The notes: generated from the letters alone by a model not told the origin. Counted from the first letter of the stretch, positions 36,858 to 54,020 are shown. The stretch: 64,000 nucleotides of DNA from Clostridiales bacterium (GCA_012842605.1 DUSN01000101.1:62001-126000); one strand, 5' to 3'. Numbers and translations: made by a program.

Positions 36858-38471
36858 CTAACGGCTAAGCTTCGAAAGCCACTCAAAGATAGTTTCTCCG
36901 TTTTCGTCAGTGACTAAGTTATTGTAAACATAATTCCAGGAGTCATGTGCACCATAGTAATAATCACCGTCAAACACGGGCCCTTCTGGATAACGTGCAA
37001 GTTTGGCAATGGCACCGGCATTTATCAGGTTATTGAAAGAGCTGACTTGACCAAATGCAGCAAAGTCGGAGGCGTTACCCACAAGATATACAGGTATTCC
37101 TTTAGCAGCGATTATTGCTGCTTGGTCTTCGCTTAACCAGCCACCGGAGACCAGCATTGCTCCTGCGAAATTGATGCTGTTTTCTGTTTCAGAAGTAATC
37201 AGTGGTGTCACCATACCGGTACCCATTGAAAGGCCGCCGACTATTATTCTGTCAGGATCAATATAATTTTCAGCTACAACTTGTCTGATTAAGGCTTCCA
37301 TATCATCTAATCTATGTGAACCCCAACCAGAGGTAGTAGATTGCGGGGCAAGCACGTATGCGCCACCCATGGCTGACTGGAACTCCTGATCAGCAAAAGC
37401 AAGAACTCTGTTGCCTACAAGATTTGCTCCGGGATTATCTACTGTCACCCCATTAATTTCTTTTGATATATAGCGCTCGCCTGTTCCATGGAACCATACT
37501 ATCAATGGTCTTAAATTATCCGGGCCAGCGTTGTCAGGCCTGTATAATGGGGCTCTGCCGCCGCCTGGCACCTCTATTGAGAGGTCAAAAGCATTAAACA
37601 AGGGGTCATGCCTTATTTCCTTCAGAGCGTATTTCAGTGTTCCGATACCCTTAATAGTTTTTTCCTGATTGATTATGAGCTCAATAGATGCATATGCGTG
37701 ATATCCATCTACTTTATACCAGGAAGCACGAGTCGCAGGAACATCATAGCGGTTTGCTGAAGTCCCGTATGGTTCGGTTCTGGTTCCCCATTCAATGTCA
37801 AGCTTAATATACTGACCGCTGTCAGTTCTGTTGCCATTTGCATCTACAACATATGCGTCCAATATGTTCCATCTGGCCCAATTGTCTTCCAGGACACGAT
37901 CACTCATTTCAGGATCCCATGAATTGGCAGGTCCCTGTACATCGCCGTTTGCTTCGGTTACCCTGGCTATTGCTGAGAAGGTATCCTTATCAATGGCATC
38001 AGTCTTAACAGTGACACCCATGTCGATTATAATTCCGGAGAAATAGTATCCCGGGTTGATGGAGGTCCTAAGTACGTCAAATGTAACTACAGCTGCCGGG
38101 ACGATAACAGTGGTGTTGAGAGTTTTGCCGTTAATCTTTTTTATAGTAAATGTTACATGCTGAATCTTGTCAGTTTGCTCAATTGCAACTTTGAGCGCAC
38201 CGGTTCTCTGTTTATTGCTGTCTATTTTATAAGGAGTAACTGTTACTTCACCATCATTCCCAGTCCAGGTCAGCTGGACCTCGTTATTTGCATTGCCGTT
38301 CCAGCCAACATTGATAATGCCTGAAAACCATCCGTCCTCCGCAGCAAATTCGCCAGCCTCCAGCACATCTACATTGTTGCTGACAGGAATTGAAATGCCG
38401 GCAGCCAATGCAGGCGCTGAAAAAAGGAATACGGTTACCAGTACTGTAATTGGTAATAGCAGTTTTTTCAT
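36858..38471 (-). CDS. Secreted EstA-like esterase
   Basis: 537 residues from the ATG at 38469-38471, which has AAAGGAGG ahead and opens the signal peptide MKKLLLPITVLVTVFLF...ALA. Three parts are visible: an N-terminal beta-rich region (about 25-130), an EstA-type Ig-like domain (about 130-290, SGQYIKLDIEW), and an alpha/beta hydrolase. The hydrolase has LIVWFHGTGER as oxyanion strand, nucleophile Ser415 in GGLSMGTG, and probable His in YYGAHDSW. Related to the esterases at 47408 and 51189, and preceded by a leader resembling the one before 51189. Likely removes acetyl or feruloyl esters from hemicellulose outside the cell; substrate not proven. Confidence 0.82.
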   Translation of the reverse strand: MKKLLLPITVLVTVFLFSAPALAAGISIPVSNNVDVLEAGEFAAEDGWFSGIINVGWNGNANNEVQLTWTGNDGEVTVTPYKIDSNKQRTGALKVAIEQTDKIQHVTFTIKKINGKTLNTTVIVPAAVVTFDVLRTSINPGYYFSGIIIDMGVTVKTDAIDKDTFSAIARVTEANGDVQGPANSWDPEMSDRVLEDNWARWNILDAYVVDANGNRTDSGQYIKLDIEWGTRTEPYGTSANRYDVPATRASWYKVDGYHAYASIELIINQEKTIKGIGTLKYALKEIRHDPLFNAFDLSIEVPGGGRAPLYRPDNAGPDNLRPLIVWFHGTGERYISKEINGVTVDNPGANLVGNRVLAFADQEFQSAMGGAYVLAPQSTTSGWGSHRLDDMEALIRQVVAENYIDPDRIIVGGLSMGTGMVTPLITSETENSINFAGAMLVSGGWLSEDQAAIIAAKGIPVYLVGNASDFAAFGQVSSFNNLINAGAIAKLARYPEGPVFDGDYYYGAHDSWNYVYNNLVTDENGETIFEWLSKLSR

Positions 38472-38604
38472 ATTGATTCCTCCTTTGATTATTAACCCAT
38501 TTACTCTGAGGTTGGGTTTCCTCATTTTCAGCTTTGTTGTTTTCGCACAGCAAGGCTAAGCGACCTCCCCCTGCTTGAGAGGTGATAGTGATCCCTCCTT
38601 TCAT
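38472..38604 (-). other. Leader element / putative short leader ORF before esterase gene (copy 1)
   Basis: On the minus strand an ATG at 38604 opens a frame reading MKGGITITSQAGGGRLALL, then a segment containing NNKAENEETQPQSK. That frame overlaps the esterase start out of frame. The 33-base block at 38532-38500 matches the block at 51122-51154 at about 23 of 33 positions; two differences are synonymous. A hairpin ACCTC/GAGGT (38563-38567 with 38579-38583) lies upstream. It could be a translated leader peptide or a structured 5' UTR; a GGAGG inside the frame could be its ribosome site with a non-ATG start. Confidence 0.45.
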
Positions 38605-47407: not shown

Positions 47408-49105
47408 ATGTGTATTAAGAGAATAGGAGTATTTATTCTGGTTTGCTCAATTCTGTTATTAGGCTTTTCTGCAATCCCTGCAGCAGGTGAAGAATCCGGT
47501 ACAATCCTGCCGTTTGTTCTAAGAAAAACCAGTTTTGCTTTTGAAGAACGTACTGACGCCCTCATTATTGATGCTGGCAAAGAGGTCATTGGCTCATCGC
47601 TGTCAATTTCAGACTTTGAAACACACGTACGCTCTACAAGAAAAGTTAACCCGAGTTATGTTTTCTATGACGGTCCCCGTGAGATTATAGACATTTACAC
47701 CAGCAAGGTTAATGATGTCGGTTCTCCGTCACCCACCGGACGTTATATAGTTATAGACTTCCATGATGTCGGATGGGGAGACGGCGGTACAACAAATGAC
47801 GGCGGATATACATTTGATTCACTGTATACCGTTACATTTAAGGGTACCCAGATTAACTGCACAGACGGATCTGCAATAATTCCCGATGGATTTGAACAGA
47901 TCGGCGAATTTAACCCGGTGCTTGATAAGTTTACTTATGAAAGATCACCTGAAGGTATGGACTATGCCCAGTTCCTGAACACTGATGCTGAAGGACCTCT
48001 GCCCCTGATGGTATTCTTCCATGGCGGCGGACAGGGCAATGACATCTATACTCCTATCAGATTCAGTAACGGCGGTCCTGTATGGGCTTATCCCGAGAAC
48101 CAGGCCAAGTATCCCTGCCATGTTATAGCTCCTCGTACAGGTTCAGGTTCTACAATGAACATGCAGAATGTTAAAGCCGTTATAGACAGACTGATAGCTG
48201 ATGGTTATGTTGATCCCAACCGTATTTATGTTACCGGTTTCTCAATGGGTGGAGGCAACACCTGGAGTTTACTGAATGCTTATCCCGAACTGGCTGCAGC
48301 AGCAATGCCCCTTTGCCCTGCAGGCGGACCAAACGCACAAACTGCTCCATTATTTGCTTATCTGCCCCTTTGGATGATGGTTGACCAGGAAGACTTCCTG
48401 CTGGGTATGGTAAGAAATACCCACAATACTTATGGTGGATACTGGAATGATTACAGATACACCGAAATTCCTGCTACCATCCTGTATGATCCTCCGTATA
48501 ACGGCTGGAAGTTCGACGGACACTCTGTATGGCTGGCTGCCTATAATGAGATAGATAAGTATGTAGAAGATGGTATGACAGCTATTGACTGGTTCTTCTC
48601 AAAGAGCAAGATCAGAGGCGTTGAAGAGGTTCAGGTTGTAACATATTCAAGGGAAGCTCCTGTTCTGCCTGGAACAGTAAAAGTAGATGTTAATTATAAC
48701 GCTTCCGGTATTGCAACAGAAGACCGTGCTGTAATATGGGAAGAAATTGATCCGCAGCTCTATGGCAATGATGGTCCTGGAGTATTTACAGTTAAGGGAT
48801 CAATAGAAGGATGTGTTGAAAAAGCTATAGCAACTGTGACTGTTGTATACAGAAATCGAATCAATGATCTTGAGGAAACTGTTACAACACTGGATATTAA
48901 TAATGGCAATAAGAATGCTCTGACTGAAAAGCTGGGCAATGCAGAAAAGTTTATTTCACAATCTAAGTCCAAGCAAGCTGTTAATATGTTAAATGCCTTT
49001 ATTAATCAGGTCAATGCCTTTAGAAATGCAGGCAAATTGACTGATGCACAGGCTGTAGAGCTGGTTGAAGCAGCAAGAGAAACAATAAGGAACATTACAG
49101 ACTAA
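47408..49105 (+). CDS. Secreted EstA-like esterase with helical C-terminal tail
   Basis: 565 residues. Signal peptide about 1-27. An EstA-type Ig-like domain (about 35-175, TGRYIVIDFHDVGWG) is followed by an alpha/beta hydrolase: oxyanion strand LMVFFHGGGQGND, nucleophile Ser279 in TGFSMGGGN, probable His372 in FDGHSVW. The C-terminal ~85 residues, after an Ig-like strand region, form a helical FIVAR-like tail (KQAVNMLNAFINQVNAFRN). No dockerin. Family activity is carboxylic ester hydrolysis, probably acetyl or feruloyl groups on xylan. Monocistronic between two terminators. Confidence 0.83.
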   Translation: MCIKRIGVFILVCSILLLGFSAIPAAGEESGTILPFVLRKTSFAFEERTDALIIDAGKEVIGSSLSISDFETHVRSTRKVNPSYVFYDGPREIIDIYTSKVNDVGSPSPTGRYIVIDFHDVGWGDGGTTNDGGYTFDSLYTVTFKGTQINCTDGSAIIPDGFEQIGEFNPVLDKFTYERSPEGMDYAQFLNTDAEGPLPLMVFFHGGGQGNDIYTPIRFSNGGPVWAYPENQAKYPCHVIAPRTGSGSTMNMQNVKAVIDRLIADGYVDPNRIYVTGFSMGGGNTWSLLNAYPELAAAAMPLCPAGGPNAQTAPLFAYLPLWMMVDQEDFLLGMVRNTHNTYGGYWNDYRYTEIPATILYDPPYNGWKFDGHSVWLAAYNEIDKYVEDGMTAIDWFFSKSKIRGVEEVQVVTYSREAPVLPGTVKVDVNYNASGIATEDRAVIWEEIDPQLYGNDGPGVFTVKGSIEGCVEKAIATVTVVYRNRINDLEETVTTLDINNGNKNALTEKLGNAEKFISQSKSKQAVNMLNAFINQVNAFRNAGKLTDAQAVELVEAARETIRNITD

Positions 49106-49247: not shown

Positions 49248-49286
49248 ATGAGGCCGACTGTACATTATTTGTTTAATCGGCCTCAT
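49248..49286. terminator. Bidirectional terminator between convergent genes
   Basis: A perfect 10-bp stem ATGAGGCCGA / TCGGCCTCAT with a 19-base loop, placed between the esterase stop (49105) and the cohesin-like gene stop (49314). Confidence 0.8.
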
Positions 49287-49313: not shown

Positions 49314-49946
49314 TTATCCGACTTTTTTTCTCTTTACATAGAAAAAAATTACTACTGCTGCTGCAACAGTTGCGCCACACAGTATCATCCAAAGGGCATA
49401 CTGCATTTGTTTTAGATTAGACTCTGGATCCGGTTTTGGATTCGTCGTTGGATCTGACACCGGCGAAACGTCTATTTTTTCATTGAGGGTAAGCAGGCTG
49501 CTGTTTGTATTGTCCTTATCTATAACCTGGACATACTTGGCTTCCTTTACCAAAATAAACTGATCAGGCTCTCCTGAATGCTCAAATACCAAAAAGCCAA
49601 TATCCAGTACTCCGTCCTTTGGTGCATAATCATTGCTACCGTGATAAAACCCAAAGTATGTTCTGCCGTTTTTTTCTACCATCGGTGTTGTGTACGCTGT
49701 ACCGATGGTTTCTGACTTTTCAAAGCTAAGAAGCTTTAGTCCCGGTGTGTACTCTATTTCAAACTCCGCCCCGGCAATGGCATACGGAACCTTCAATGTG
49801 ATAGGAACGCGCACCTCATTTGCTTCATTGGGGCTCGCAGTTGACGCATTGATATTTTGTGAAAAGCAGAAAACAGTAAAAAATATTAATAATAGTATGT
49901 TTAACATCTTTTCTTTGAAATGCATAACTCTACTTCTGATATGCAT
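49314..49946 (-). CDS. Membrane-anchored protein with a single cohesin-like domain
   Basis: 210 residues from an ATG with AGGAGGT 7 bases upstream. Signal peptide about 1-35. Residues about 40-150 read like a cohesin: VPITLKVPYAIAGAEFEIEY, LKLLSFEKS, then GVLDIGFLVFEHS. A Pro/Asp/Asn linker (DPTTNPKPDPESN) leads to a transmembrane helix (about 183-204) and a KRKK tail, so it is anchored with the domain outside. Its neighbour on the other side of a 1.2-kb gap is the only dockerin protein in the window. It may anchor that esterase to the cell; the cohesin call rests on pattern resemblance and could be a related beta-sandwich. Confidence 0.68.
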   Translation of the reverse strand: MHIRSRVMHFKEKMLNILLLIFFTVFCFSQNINASTASPNEANEVRVPITLKVPYAIAGAEFEIEYTPGLKLLSFEKSETIGTAYTTPMVEKNGRTYFGFYHGSNDYAPKDGVLDIGFLVFEHSGEPDQFILVKEAKYVQVIDKDNTNSSLLTLNEKIDVSPVSDPTTNPKPDPESNLKQMQYALWMILCGATVAAAVVIFFYVKRKKVG

Positions 49947-51037
49947 TGCTAATACCTCCTAGCTTTAGATAATATTATTGGTGATCAGCGGCTCTTTGAT
50001 GTCTGTATGGACATTCTCCTGCAAGCTTATTCCCATTAATATTGAATTCTGAAGAATTGTTTCTGCTGATTTTTTTGCGATTTCGCCCAGGTATACGGCG
50101 TACCAGCTATTGTATGCAGTTCTTAGATTCTTTAGACAGTTCGATATTTATTGCTGTTTATAGTATGAGCAGATAATTCTTTGAACCAGTATTGCACCTT
50201 TAGTAAAAGTGGTTTGCAGCATGTGTTAATATGTTATAAAAACGTAGGGAATCTTATACTCGCCAGTACTTTTTATTGTTAAAAATATTGGTGATGTCGA
50301 TAATATTGCTTGACAATTCCCATTATATGGATTAATATTAATATTGTCAATAATATATATAAATATTTAGTAGATTATATATATAATAATACCATTCATG
50401 TTTTCGAAAACACACAAATGAACCAGAATACTCGGCATTCTCATACAAATCGTATAACTATTCAAATCATTTATCGTATCGTTAGTCGTACTTGCGTTTC
50501 TTGATGTTGCAGAAATAAACAACTTTGACTGGAGTCAATGCAAAAAAACGTCATTCATTTAGCACCAGGGCTGTTTCAGAGAGATACCAGCATGCTTGCA
50601 AACTCATTCCGGCATCATTAATAGGTACTGGAGTGTGACTTTCGTGCAGGCAAAAATATTACATAACTTATCATAAGTTATAACCGGCATGATATAACTC
50701 AACCGGCTCATATTTCTATTATATTTTGGATAACCAAACTGCTCTGGCAGTAAAAGATCTATTTACTGTGTACATTAGACACGAATTTTGCACTGAACTT
50801 ACTTGATGATGACTGACTAAAAGAGATAATTACCGGTAGGGACTCTACGGTGTTCTGTTCATTCATAGCAGTATTCTGCCATTACCACTGAAATACTTGT
50901 TATAGATCATATAGTATGCCATATCAATCAAACATTCAAACAACAGTTGGACTACACAAGTTTCACAGGATCGTCTTTCATATCGTCGCTATATTCTATG
51001 CACATTGATTAAACTACTGGGTTTCTGCCGGTGGTAT
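49947..51037. other. Long non-coding divergent region between cohesin-like and dockerin genes
   Basis: About 1.1 kb with no gene-like frame, unusually long for this window. Structures seen: TAACTTA-TCA-TAAGTTA (50664-50680), paired ACCGGC/ACCGGC tracts just after it, CTGC-TCTG-GCAG near 50740, and a bulged stem ACCGGTAG/CTACGGT near 50833-50852. It should hold both divergent promoters and perhaps regulator sites. I could not assign a known RNA family. Confidence 0.5.
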
Positions 51038-51188
51038 ATGAATGAAAAGAAGGAGGTGATAACAAAGATCCGCCTTTTGTATAAAGCGGGTCCGCTTATC
51101 ACGTTGCGCGTAAGCAACGAGGCTGAAAACAGAGAACCACAGCTCCAGAATAAAAGGAGGCAAAATTACATTTTTGGAGGGATCATGT
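51038..51188 (+). other. Leader element / putative short leader ORF before dockerin esterase (copy 2)
   Basis: An ATG at 51038 opens a frame reading MNEKKEVITKIRLLYKAGP, then a segment with NEAENREPQLQNK. It overlaps the esterase start out of frame, in the same relative frame as copy 1. AAGGAGGTGAT lies at 51050-51060. RNA structure is also strong: GTGATAA/TTATCAC (51056-51062 with 51096-51102) encloses GATCCGC/GCGGGTC (51067-51073 with 51086-51092), followed by CGTTGC/GCAACG (51102-51107 with 51114-51119). Two further ribosome sites (AAAAGGAGG, TTGGAGGG) precede the esterase ATG. Confidence 0.45.
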
Positions 51189-54020
51189 ATGTTGAAAAAA
51201 ATAGCATCGATATTGTTGACGCTAATTATGCTGACATCCGTGTTTTCAGGAAAAATTTCATATTCAGCCCAGGAAGAAAGCATCACATGGCGGCAGGTTC
51301 ATCCTTCTGATATTGTAATAGGCAAGTACTATCTGGTCGTATCCGAACATGGTGCGCTTACCAACGCGCAGGCTACAATCAGCACACCCGGGGATGTCAC
51401 AGGCGACACCCAGATAGGATTGGCTGTTAAGCCTGTGACATACGATGAAAACGGATTAATTGTATCAGAAGTAACAGGTGACATGATCTGGCAGTTTGGT
51501 GTTGGTGCAAACACTGCAGCAGCATCCGGCGATATTGGTGAAGGATCCGGCTACTATCTGCTGAATGCAGCACCCGGCCCGGGCGGTGGCACACTGCCCC
51601 TGAGAAGGGAATCCAGCTTCAACGCACAGCATGCACCCATCAATACCACAGGAGCAGCTATCAATGGCAATCAGCAGAGTCTGATGATGCATGTTCTGGA
51701 TGAAGAAGAAGGCACGGTAGGATTCTACTACTGGGGCGGAAACAACCAGTGGAACTTTGCTCTGCACAGCACAGAAGACGGCTTCACTGCAAAGAGTTAT
51801 GCTGCAAGCGCAACTTCTGCAGCACAAGTGTTTGCGCAGCTGCAGGAATCACCGGCTTTGAAGCTGTATGAACCCAATGTGGATGTTGGTGAGGAGCACT
51901 ATGTATTAGCTACTGCCGGCGAGAATGGTACAATAAGCCCCACTTCACTGACAGGTCATGTTTGGGTAAAAAAGGGTGAAGATGTAACCTTCACATTCTA
52001 CCCTGCATTAGGATTTGAAGTAGATAAAGTTATTGTTAATGACGAAGAAGTTACTGTTGAAGACAACACCTACACAATAGAGGACGTCAACGAAGACGGA
52101 ATAAGAATCCATGTAACATTCAGACCTGCTTCTAATACTGTGGATGTACCGTTCATAGTTTACAATGACATATTTGCTGTAGGTAACGTAACAACAGCAG
52201 TCATCATCGACCTTGGCGAAGGCAAAGCAGCTAACCTTGCCGACCTGAGTGCCGACATGTTCTCAGTGGCTGCCAGGAACACAAGGCTTGACGGCACAAC
52301 CGTAATTTTTGACGGAACACGCAAGATATCCAGGGTATATGTAAACGATGAGCCCGAGCCTCTCGGATATATACTGCCTGCACCGGGATCCGACGATCTT
52401 GTAACCGATACACCCGAGAGCGGACGTTATATCATAATTGAACTTGAGTTCTGGGATGCCAATGGCTACTTGTCCGGTGCAATGGTATCCGGCAACCTGC
52501 AGAACTCATTCTCTGCAATACTCAATTACCGCATCAATGCAAACCGTGAGATTAAACTGACAGATGGAACCTCCATAGTTCCGATGTTTATACAGGAAGA
52601 AGTAGTTAACCATGCACTTGACAAGTTTGTTCCGGACCAGACAAATCCGGGCGGAAGCGGCAACATGAACATACTGATTTCAATTGATGAAGCTTGGGAA
52701 GAACTCGGACCTCTGCCGTTATTCATCTACAACCATGGCGGCGGCCGCGGCGGCCCTAATGATGATCCGTTTGCTCCTGTTCAAACTGCTAACGGTGCAG
52801 CTTATCTTTCCAAGCTCCAGCTGAAGTACCCCGGCAAATACCATGCACACATCATAGCTACACAAAACCATTCTGACAACGCAGCCAACAACCAGGCCCT
52901 TATAGCATATGTTACAAAGTTGGCTGAAGAAGGTAAGGTAGACCTGAAACGTGTATACATGTCCGGTTTCTCAATGGGTAGTATGTACACAGTAGGCTTC
53001 TATACCCGTTATCCCGAGTTCCTTGCTGCAATTGTTCCGCTTGCAGGAGGTAATTTGCCATCAGAAGATAGGCTCAATGAGAACCCAGAGTACACAAATA
53101 CTGCTATTTGGGCATTCACTCATAAAGATGACTTCATGGGCACTACCTGGACCAACTACTTCTCAACCGGCGCAGGCGCCAGCGGATTATACCATAATGC
53201 CAATGTATCCGTAATGGATACCAACCAGGCCTTTAACTTCCCGTTCTACGGCTACGACTGGACACCCCATGAGACCGAAGCTCAGGCGTTCAGCAACCTA
53301 ATAGGTCAAGGCAAGACTCTCTTCAAATATGGCCCGGGCCATGAAGAGTTCGCAGGTCAGACCATTTTTGACTGGATGTTTGCACAGGTAAGGGCTCCGG
53401 AGGGCACTGTTAAAGTCAAGCTGAACGGCGATCCCGTCATTGATGAAAAAGAAAAGGCCGAGTATTTGCTTTCCGCTGCAAATATGGATAAAGTAGCAAC
53501 AGTAACAGCATGGATTGAAGTAGACGGTGAATACTTCTCCGGCAACTCAGTAGAAGGCCTGAACGGCTTCCAGGTTCTTGGCGATATCGTTTGGGAAAGC
53601 AAAGGCGGTTCATTGTGGAGCGGAAGGATAACCCTTATTAACTTAGACGGCGGTGTTTCATCTGCTCCCTACACTAATATACTGAAGCTGACATTGAGTC
53701 CCAAGGAAAAGCTGGGAACAACTGATGTGAAGCTTGCACGTATTGTTATCAGCGGTTATAATGCAGAAAACAAGGCAGTATACTTTAATTCCATGATTCT
53801 CAATGATACTGTCACAACTGAAATTACACCGTACTACTCCAGGTATGATATCAACCGCGACGGAATAGTAGACCAGCTCGACTTGACTGCTGCACAGCTT
53901 TATTATGCAGCACGTGAAGGCGATGACAACTGGGATGCTGCCAAGATTGCCGACGTGAACGAGGATGGCCGTGTCGATATAGAAGACTTCATCCTGATTC
54001 TCAACCATATCGTCTGGTAA
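51189..54020 (+). CDS. Secreted multidomain esterase with cohesin-like module and C-terminal dockerin
   Basis: 943 residues from the ATG at 51189, 8 bases after GGAGGG; a TTG at 51174 overlaps that ribosome site. Signal peptide (about 1-27), an unassigned N-terminal beta domain (about 30-230), an InlB B-repeat-like segment (about 236-310), and an EstA Ig-like domain (about 315-470) lead to an alpha/beta hydrolase with Ser595 in SGFSMGS and likely His718 in GPGHEEF. A cohesin-like sandwich (about 738-880) precedes a type I dockerin (about 884-943) with two Ca-binding repeats, DINRDGIVDQLD (from Asp887) and DVNEDGRVDIED (from Asp922). Likely a hemicellulose esterase held at the surface by a cohesin. 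Confidence 0.87.
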   Translation: MLKKIASILLTLIMLTSVFSGKISYSAQEESITWRQVHPSDIVIGKYYLVVSEHGALTNAQATISTPGDVTGDTQIGLAVKPVTYDENGLIVSEVTGDMIWQFGVGANTAAASGDIGEGSGYYLLNAAPGPGGGTLPLRRESSFNAQHAPINTTGAAINGNQQSLMMHVLDEEEGTVGFYYWGGNNQWNFALHSTEDGFTAKSYAASATSAAQVFAQLQESPALKLYEPNVDVGEEHYVLATAGENGTISPTSLTGHVWVKKGEDVTFTFYPALGFEVDKVIVNDEEVTVEDNTYTIEDVNEDGIRIHVTFRPASNTVDVPFIVYNDIFAVGNVTTAVIIDLGEGKAANLADLSADMFSVAARNTRLDGTTVIFDGTRKISRVYVNDEPEPLGYILPAPGSDDLVTDTPESGRYIIIELEFWDANGYLSGAMVSGNLQNSFSAILNYRINANREIKLTDGTSIVPMFIQEEVVNHALDKFVPDQTNPGGSGNMNILISIDEAWEELGPLPLFIYNHGGGRGGPNDDPFAPVQTANGAAYLSKLQLKYPGKYHAHIIATQNHSDNAANNQALIAYVTKLAEEGKVDLKRVYMSGFSMGSMYTVGFYTRYPEFLAAIVPLAGGNLPSEDRLNENPEYTNTAIWAFTHKDDFMGTTWTNYFSTGAGASGLYHNANVSVMDTNQAFNFPFYGYDWTPHETEAQAFSNLIGQGKTLFKYGPGHEEFAGQTIFDWMFAQVRAPEGTVKVKLNGDPVIDEKEKAEYLLSAANMDKVATVTAWIEVDGEYFSGNSVEGLNGFQVLGDIVWESKGGSLWSGRITLINLDGGVSSAPYTNILKLTLSPKEKLGTTDVKLARIVISGYNAENKAVYFNSMILNDTVTTEITPYYSRYDINRDGIVDQLDLTAAQLYYAAREGDDNWDAAKIADVNEDGRVDIEDFILILNHIVW

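Follow-up and report, generated by a model that had tools for sequence, protein, structure and literature searches.

A membrane-anchored single cohesin beside a cohesin-dockerin esterase, a probable surface-tethering pair from a Clostridiales genome with several such islands

A 64,000-nucleotide stretch of DNA from a Clostridiales bacterium, called the window below, encodes a membrane-anchored protein with a single cohesin and, divergent from it, a secreted esterase that ends in a cohesin and a dockerin. The esterase's dockerin probably binds the cognate anchored cohesin and so tethers the enzyme to the cell. The anchored protein would act as a monovalent receptor at the surface: after export, its C-terminal helix would keep it in the membrane, with the one cohesin pointing outward. 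Binding of the dockerin would be calcium-dependent and would keep the esterase at the cell surface, close to genes for the uptake of arabinoxylan-type sugars. At least three islands of this kind occur in the genome, with one anchored single cohesin adjoining one or more cohesin-dockerin (Coh-Doc) enzymes in each. Anchored cohesin and dockerin type are particular to each island, so the pairs are likely to be insulated from one another.

The anchored protein (49314-49946, minus strand) is an ORF of 210 aa. It consists of a signal peptide, a β-sandwich of ~125 residues, a short proline-rich linker, a membrane helix and a basic KRKKVG tail, in this order. The signal peptide takes up about residues 1-35 (49841-49946, minus strand) and is hydrophobic from residue 14, its cleavage site being placed by eye. 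The cohesin domain covers residues ~36-165 (49452-49841, minus strand), and the C-terminal membrane helix residues ~184-204 (49335-49397, minus strand), with a hydropathy of 2.43 over 19 residues. A motif check of the 210-aa sequence found no LPXTG.

Pfam Cohesin (PF00963) gives the anchored domain 15.7 bits, below the curated cut-off of 24.1; the esterase's own (cis) cohesin domain is unlisted by Pfam, and relatives in another island, C73, pass in the genome search. A phmmer search of PDB sequences with the anchored protein returned chance matches only, none of them close, and a fold search was therefore needed. The AlphaFold model of the domain, with 16 related domains as input, has a mean pLDDT of 86.9. 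Cohesins make up 20 of its 21 PDB fold matches at E ≤ 0.001, those of C. thermocellum, Pseudobacteroides, Archaeoglobus (non-cellulosomal) and C. perfringens among them, with modest TM-scores (TMq 0.45-0.64). Judged by this model, with the Pfam score under the cut-off, the domain is a divergent member of the cohesin fold; the β-sandwich of the cis domain likewise matches mostly cohesins. The initial annotation had described a signal peptide, a cohesin-like sandwich, a short linker and a transmembrane anchor, and had proposed comparing a predicted structure with cohesins; hydropathy, AlphaFold and the fold search agree with that description. A nonSLH-anchoring scaffoldin is defined as at least one cohesin with a wall or membrane anchor, for instance a C-terminal TM helix (PMC11557425), and the protein combines a predicted cohesin fold with a TM helix at residue 184.

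The partner is an EstA-type esterase of 943 aa (51189-54020, plus strand), an ORF assigned from Pfam and from its relationship to the PDB esterase 3doh (E 1.2e-6). An EstA Ig-like domain lies at residues 327-462 (52167-52574; PF18435, EstA_Ig_like, 36.9 bits). It is followed by an alpha/beta-hydrolase esterase domain with a GFSMGS nucleophile motif, recognized by similarity to other esterases (52656-53393), the cis cohesin at residues ~740-876 (53406-53816) and, immediately after it, a type I dockerin at residues 886-941 (53844-54011), all on the plus strand. Residues ~28-320 (51270-52160) have no Pfam match and are possibly carbohydrate-binding domains. The dockerin scores 27.5 bits against a cut-off of 22.9 (PF00404), has an E of 1.3e-7 in the Pfam search of its own genome, and both calcium loops, DINRDGIVDQLD and DVNEDGRVDIED, are complete.

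In the AlphaFold model of the esterase tail (residues 736-943; pLDDT 92.6, pTM 0.75) we count 11 strands and three helices. Cohesins head the PDB fold matches of the cis domain (4ums, E 5.4e-9; 2vo8, target TM-score 0.78). As modelled, the enzyme is a Coh-Doc enzyme with a true cohesin fold before its dockerin. A protein that has a single dockerin and a single cohesin counts as a monovalent adaptor scaffoldin (PMC11557425); the esterase has this pair at residues ~740-876 and 886-941, though it is also an enzyme. The secreted esterase with a two-repeat dockerin and the divergent gene arrangement thus stand as initially annotated. The count of one cohesin does not: the window holds two, the cis cohesin having been overlooked. 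The annotation had also excluded a scaffoldin or other dockerin from the window, and for dockerins this holds, Pfam finding none in the 64 kb besides the esterase's.

The window has three EstA-type esterases (36858-38525, 47408-49105 and 51189-54020), only one of them with a dockerin. The neighbour at 47408-49105, without dockerin, is a paralogue of the dockerin-bearing enzyme (27% identity over 489 columns, E 1e-32). A scan of genome contigs with the esterase gave one relative, a 2055-aa protein of Flavonifractor intestinipullorum (L038:2298-8465), whose Coh-Doc tail is 36% identical to the esterase tail. No anchored cohesin was recognized in its fetched flanks.

The two genes are separated by a 1242-base intergenic region. 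A TTGACA-17-TATAAT promoter-like site points toward the anchored cohesin (50322-50350, minus strand, 12/12 match), and an overlapping divergent site toward the esterase (50310-50338, plus strand, 10/12 match). A 12/12 site occurs in 0.5% of shuffled intergenic sequences, and one with an opposite-strand site of at least 10/12 within 60 bp in 0 of 1000. The promoter scan as a whole is at chance level (9 sites, 9.6 expected), the single 12/12 site alone standing out. As a sequence match, the overlap hints at coordinated divergent expression. The esterase leader from this site would span about 850 bases and has no Rfam match. On the other side, a GAGGCCGA...TCGGCCTC stem (49250-49284), possibly a two-way terminator by its position, sits in the gap where the 47408 esterase gene and the anchored cohesin gene converge. 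The window also carries sugar ABC transporters along with GH43, arabinofuranosidase and GH127-type genes, so the substrate is probably an arabinoxylan-type hemicellulose.

We sought relatives in 391 genomes of the class Clostridia. With the anchored cohesin as query, the best two non-self matches fall in G201 (E 2.8e-7; 32% identity over 147 columns) and G075 (E 4.8e-5), both from other families. Matches to the esterase tail end 199 bp (G201) and 131 bp (G075) upstream of these relatives; a pair that recurs in other families is not there by chance in the window. The relatives keep both genes on one strand, unlike the divergent pair studied here, which counts against the proposed tethering. The G201 and G075 partner proteins have a signal peptide and the same cohesin type, with three SLH repeats replacing the TM helix. 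In G075 one anchor shares its neighbourhood with three Coh-Doc proteins, and a third SLH case, G049, comes with a GH3 Coh-Doc enzyme. Since the anchor is swapped while the cohesin is kept beside a Coh-Doc neighbour, surface attachment of that neighbour is the simplest shared function.

Of the 391 sampled genomes, 163 have cohesins and 189 have dockerins. A closer census took 80 genomes picked for having 1-2 cohesins (68 also have a dockerin), so its counts are not class-wide frequencies. Of the cohesins in these genomes, 113 in all, 37 have a dockerin in a separate ORF no more than 2 kb away, always on the same strand (37/37), and most of them lie downstream of it (34/37). The others share an ORF with a dockerin (18), lie at 2-6 kb from one (10) or have none within 6 kb on their contig (48). 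Anchors could be assessed on 33 complete partner ORFs: 18 end in a C-terminal TM helix, 7 have SLH and 2 LPXTG (27/33 together), 3 have an internal TM helix and in 3 no anchor was seen. In few-cohesin genomes, then, a cohesin often adjoins a dockerin gene and comes with a surface anchor. The dockerin partners reach beyond sugar breakdown, to SpoIID, LRR, transglutaminase and amidase proteins, and in some of them no cis cohesin was seen.

Two further layouts were observed. At L100:2377-5691 and L020:8678-12774, the gene of a SpoIID-SH3-dockerin protein precedes one or two genes for cohesin-like proteins, mostly membrane-anchored; this layout occurs in more than one Clostridia family and looks like a separate Coh-Doc system linked to a cell-wall enzyme. 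In a sister family, a conserved protein that is not an enzyme, with a cohesin at its N-terminus and a dockerin at its C-terminus, is encoded beside the glutamyl-tRNA synthetase gene (L032:1732-3948, L033:1620-3827, L034:299-2534 and L035:321-2015). It is paired in L032-L034 with a protein of 175-181 aa that has one membrane helix and one cohesin; the L035 locus is truncated, and this partner was not seen there.

The genome itself is 84% complete, and its modules were counted from Pfam searches and fetched stretches. Pfam gives three dockerins and three cohesins. In island C21, a 170-aa protein that combines a single cohesin with a membrane helix at its N-terminus precedes a GH30 and then a GH10 enzyme; both enzymes carry cohesin-like and dockerin modules. 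The GH30 enzyme (in L007) has a Pfam dockerin, so at least one glycoside hydrolase of this genome bears one, as is asked of a cellulosome. In the GH10 protein (L007:16544-19552) the dockerin is degenerate, with its first calcium loop lost, and falls below Pfam detection. In island C73 the enzyme is a large glycosidase-esterase fusion bearing a cohesin as well as a dockerin, followed by a 330-aa anchored-cohesin protein made of a signal peptide, a cohesin, a long linker and a C-terminal membrane helix. The C73 type also occurs in G003, from a different genus of this family, and in G017, from a different family of the order; G017 has the C21 type as well.

Beyond the window, C21 and C73 thus add three dockerin-type modules and two anchored cohesins, and the single pair of the initial annotation does not hold genome-wide. 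Its broader proposal of a stripped-down system for surface pinning, without a large scaffoldin, gains from the fold, the recurrence, the alternative anchors (TM, SLH, LPXTG) and the co-variation described below; the part that pinned a single esterase gives way to at least three islands. The annotation had alternatively supposed a family of dockerin enzymes elsewhere served by this anchor. Pairs specific to an island are the likelier arrangement, since every island comes with a separate anchored cohesin and a separate dockerin type.

Similarity among anchored cohesins tracks similarity among the neighbouring dockerins (13 pairs; Mantel r = 0.905, p 0.0002), and genomes that have more than one pair follow the same trend. 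The correlation fits separate recognition types, although linked genes are inherited together and would give the same signal without contact. The cis cohesin and the dockerin diverge together as well (r 0.915). We considered the anchored cohesin as a recent copy of the cis cohesin and rejected this: the two have no recognizable similarity in 12 of the 13 pairs. They are therefore old, separate domains.

The role of the cis cohesin is the point of greatest interest in this pair. It could be a second docking site, holding a further dockerin protein, or a structural support of the dockerin. The latter role would resemble that of the X module in X-dockerins, with a non-binding cis cohesin and the anchored cohesin as sole receptor; it would refine the proposed attachment to the cell, not exclude it. 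We regard it as a reasonable but somewhat doubtful possibility. The confident modelling of cohesin and dockerin as one tail agrees with it, as does their joint divergence. It accords less well with the listed fold matches of the cis domain, nearly all of them cohesins, and with the dockerin partners elsewhere in which no cis cohesin was seen.

As a docking site, the cis cohesin could permit enzyme-to-enzyme chains. The dockerin might bind its own or another enzyme's cis cohesin instead of the anchored one, and would then mainly link Coh-Doc enzymes head-to-tail, the anchored cohesin capping the chain at the membrane. In every dockerin enzyme examined across the three islands, the enzyme's own cohesin adjoins the dockerin, and the cis domain has a true cohesin fold by its model. 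There are precedents: the R. bromii Amy16 dockerin binds the Amy4 cohesin (PMC5814915), and C. perfringens enzymes pair through enzyme-borne cohesins and dockerins (PMC12997984). We nevertheless think chains of this kind unlikely. Given how unlike the anchored and cis cohesins are, one dockerin may not read both, and the short linker between cis cohesin and dockerin may limit chains. An extended form, in which each enzyme brings its own cohesin and dockerin, each island builds a chain from its dedicated anchored cohesin, and several chains with separate codes coexist per cell as a scaffoldin-free assembly, is unlikely too.

Direct binding of the esterase dockerin to the anchored cohesin, the reading we prefer, also has to face a scaffoldin that was missed, the window pair then being an accessory of an ordinary small cellulosome. 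The incomplete genome and the blindness of Pfam to divergent cohesins, such as that of the window, leave room for one. Within the 84% of the genome at hand, all Pfam cohesins are single and no multi-cohesin protein was found, with that same blindness of Pfam; for this reason we do not class the system as a cellulosome. Four dockerin modules at most were seen in the genome, and relatives of the same order, mostly more complete, also show few and mostly single cohesins, so that a missed scaffoldin is improbable. It is more improbable still that the anchored protein is a general adhesion or sugar-binding sandwich with a coincidental neighbourhood, for although its sub-threshold Pfam score and modest TM-scores weigh against a dockerin receptor and linkage by itself proves no contact, its relatives adjoin Coh-Doc tails in two other families, its best fold matches are cohesins in all cases but one, and the other islands repeat the layout.

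If the pairs bind, they amount to a simple means of tethering, possibly far more widespread than cellulosomes. They would be a plausible starting point for the evolution of scaffoldins, and a source of natural pairs whose partner can be read from gene order. A literature search for gene pairs of a membrane-anchored cohesin and an adjacent dockerin found nothing. A recent survey of cellulosome genomes required a multi-cohesin scaffoldin (PMC11557425), and genomes like this one would thus be skipped.

Both parts fit known classes, the anchored protein a TM-anchored monovalent scaffoldin, the esterase an enzyme with cohesin and dockerin as in the R. bromii amylosome. With its single cohesin and C-terminal TM helix the former resembles the nonSLH-anchoring scaffoldins of PMC11557425. 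Those, however, come from genomes with multi-cohesin scaffoldins and their partners are called unclear, whereas here the partner gene is adjacent. OlpA and ScaJ (PMC3413522, PMC4045903) similarly have one type I cohesin and a surface anchor and are able to receive enzymes directly, but within full cellulosome systems; OlpA has an SLH anchor, as have the G075 and G201 relatives of the window's anchored protein. ScaO-type Coh1-Doc1 bi-domain proteins (PMC11557425, PMC5590126) likewise combine catalytic-type domains with a C-terminal cohesin and, after it, a dockerin; unlike the esterase, they are peptidase-type and belong to large cellulosomes. The Archaeoglobus fulgidus cohesin (PDB 2xdh), third-best fold match of the anchored domain, is also found outside a cellulosome, though it is archaeal and not tied here to an enzyme partner.

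In Clostridium perfringens, enzyme-borne complexes likewise make enzyme-to-enzyme Coh-Doc contacts without a scaffoldin (PMC12997984), and the fold matches include its solved cohesins 2vo8, 2jh2 and 2w1n. Its enzymes act on host glycans, and no dedicated anchored single-cohesin partner gene is described. The R. bromii amylosome, the closest worked-out parallel to the proposed binding, brings Amy4/Sca1 together with the anchored Sca2 and Sca5; binding was seen there with a GFP-tagged Amy4 dockerin, and the dockerin attaches to cells with calcium (PMC5814915). As here, an enzyme has both cohesin and dockerin, and cohesin proteins are anchored at the surface. The present system is not of the same type: the amylosome has sortase anchors and starch enzymes, whereas here a membrane helix without LPXTG is combined with an esterase and hemicellulose enzymes (GH30, GH10), and every island brings an adjacent anchor of its own.
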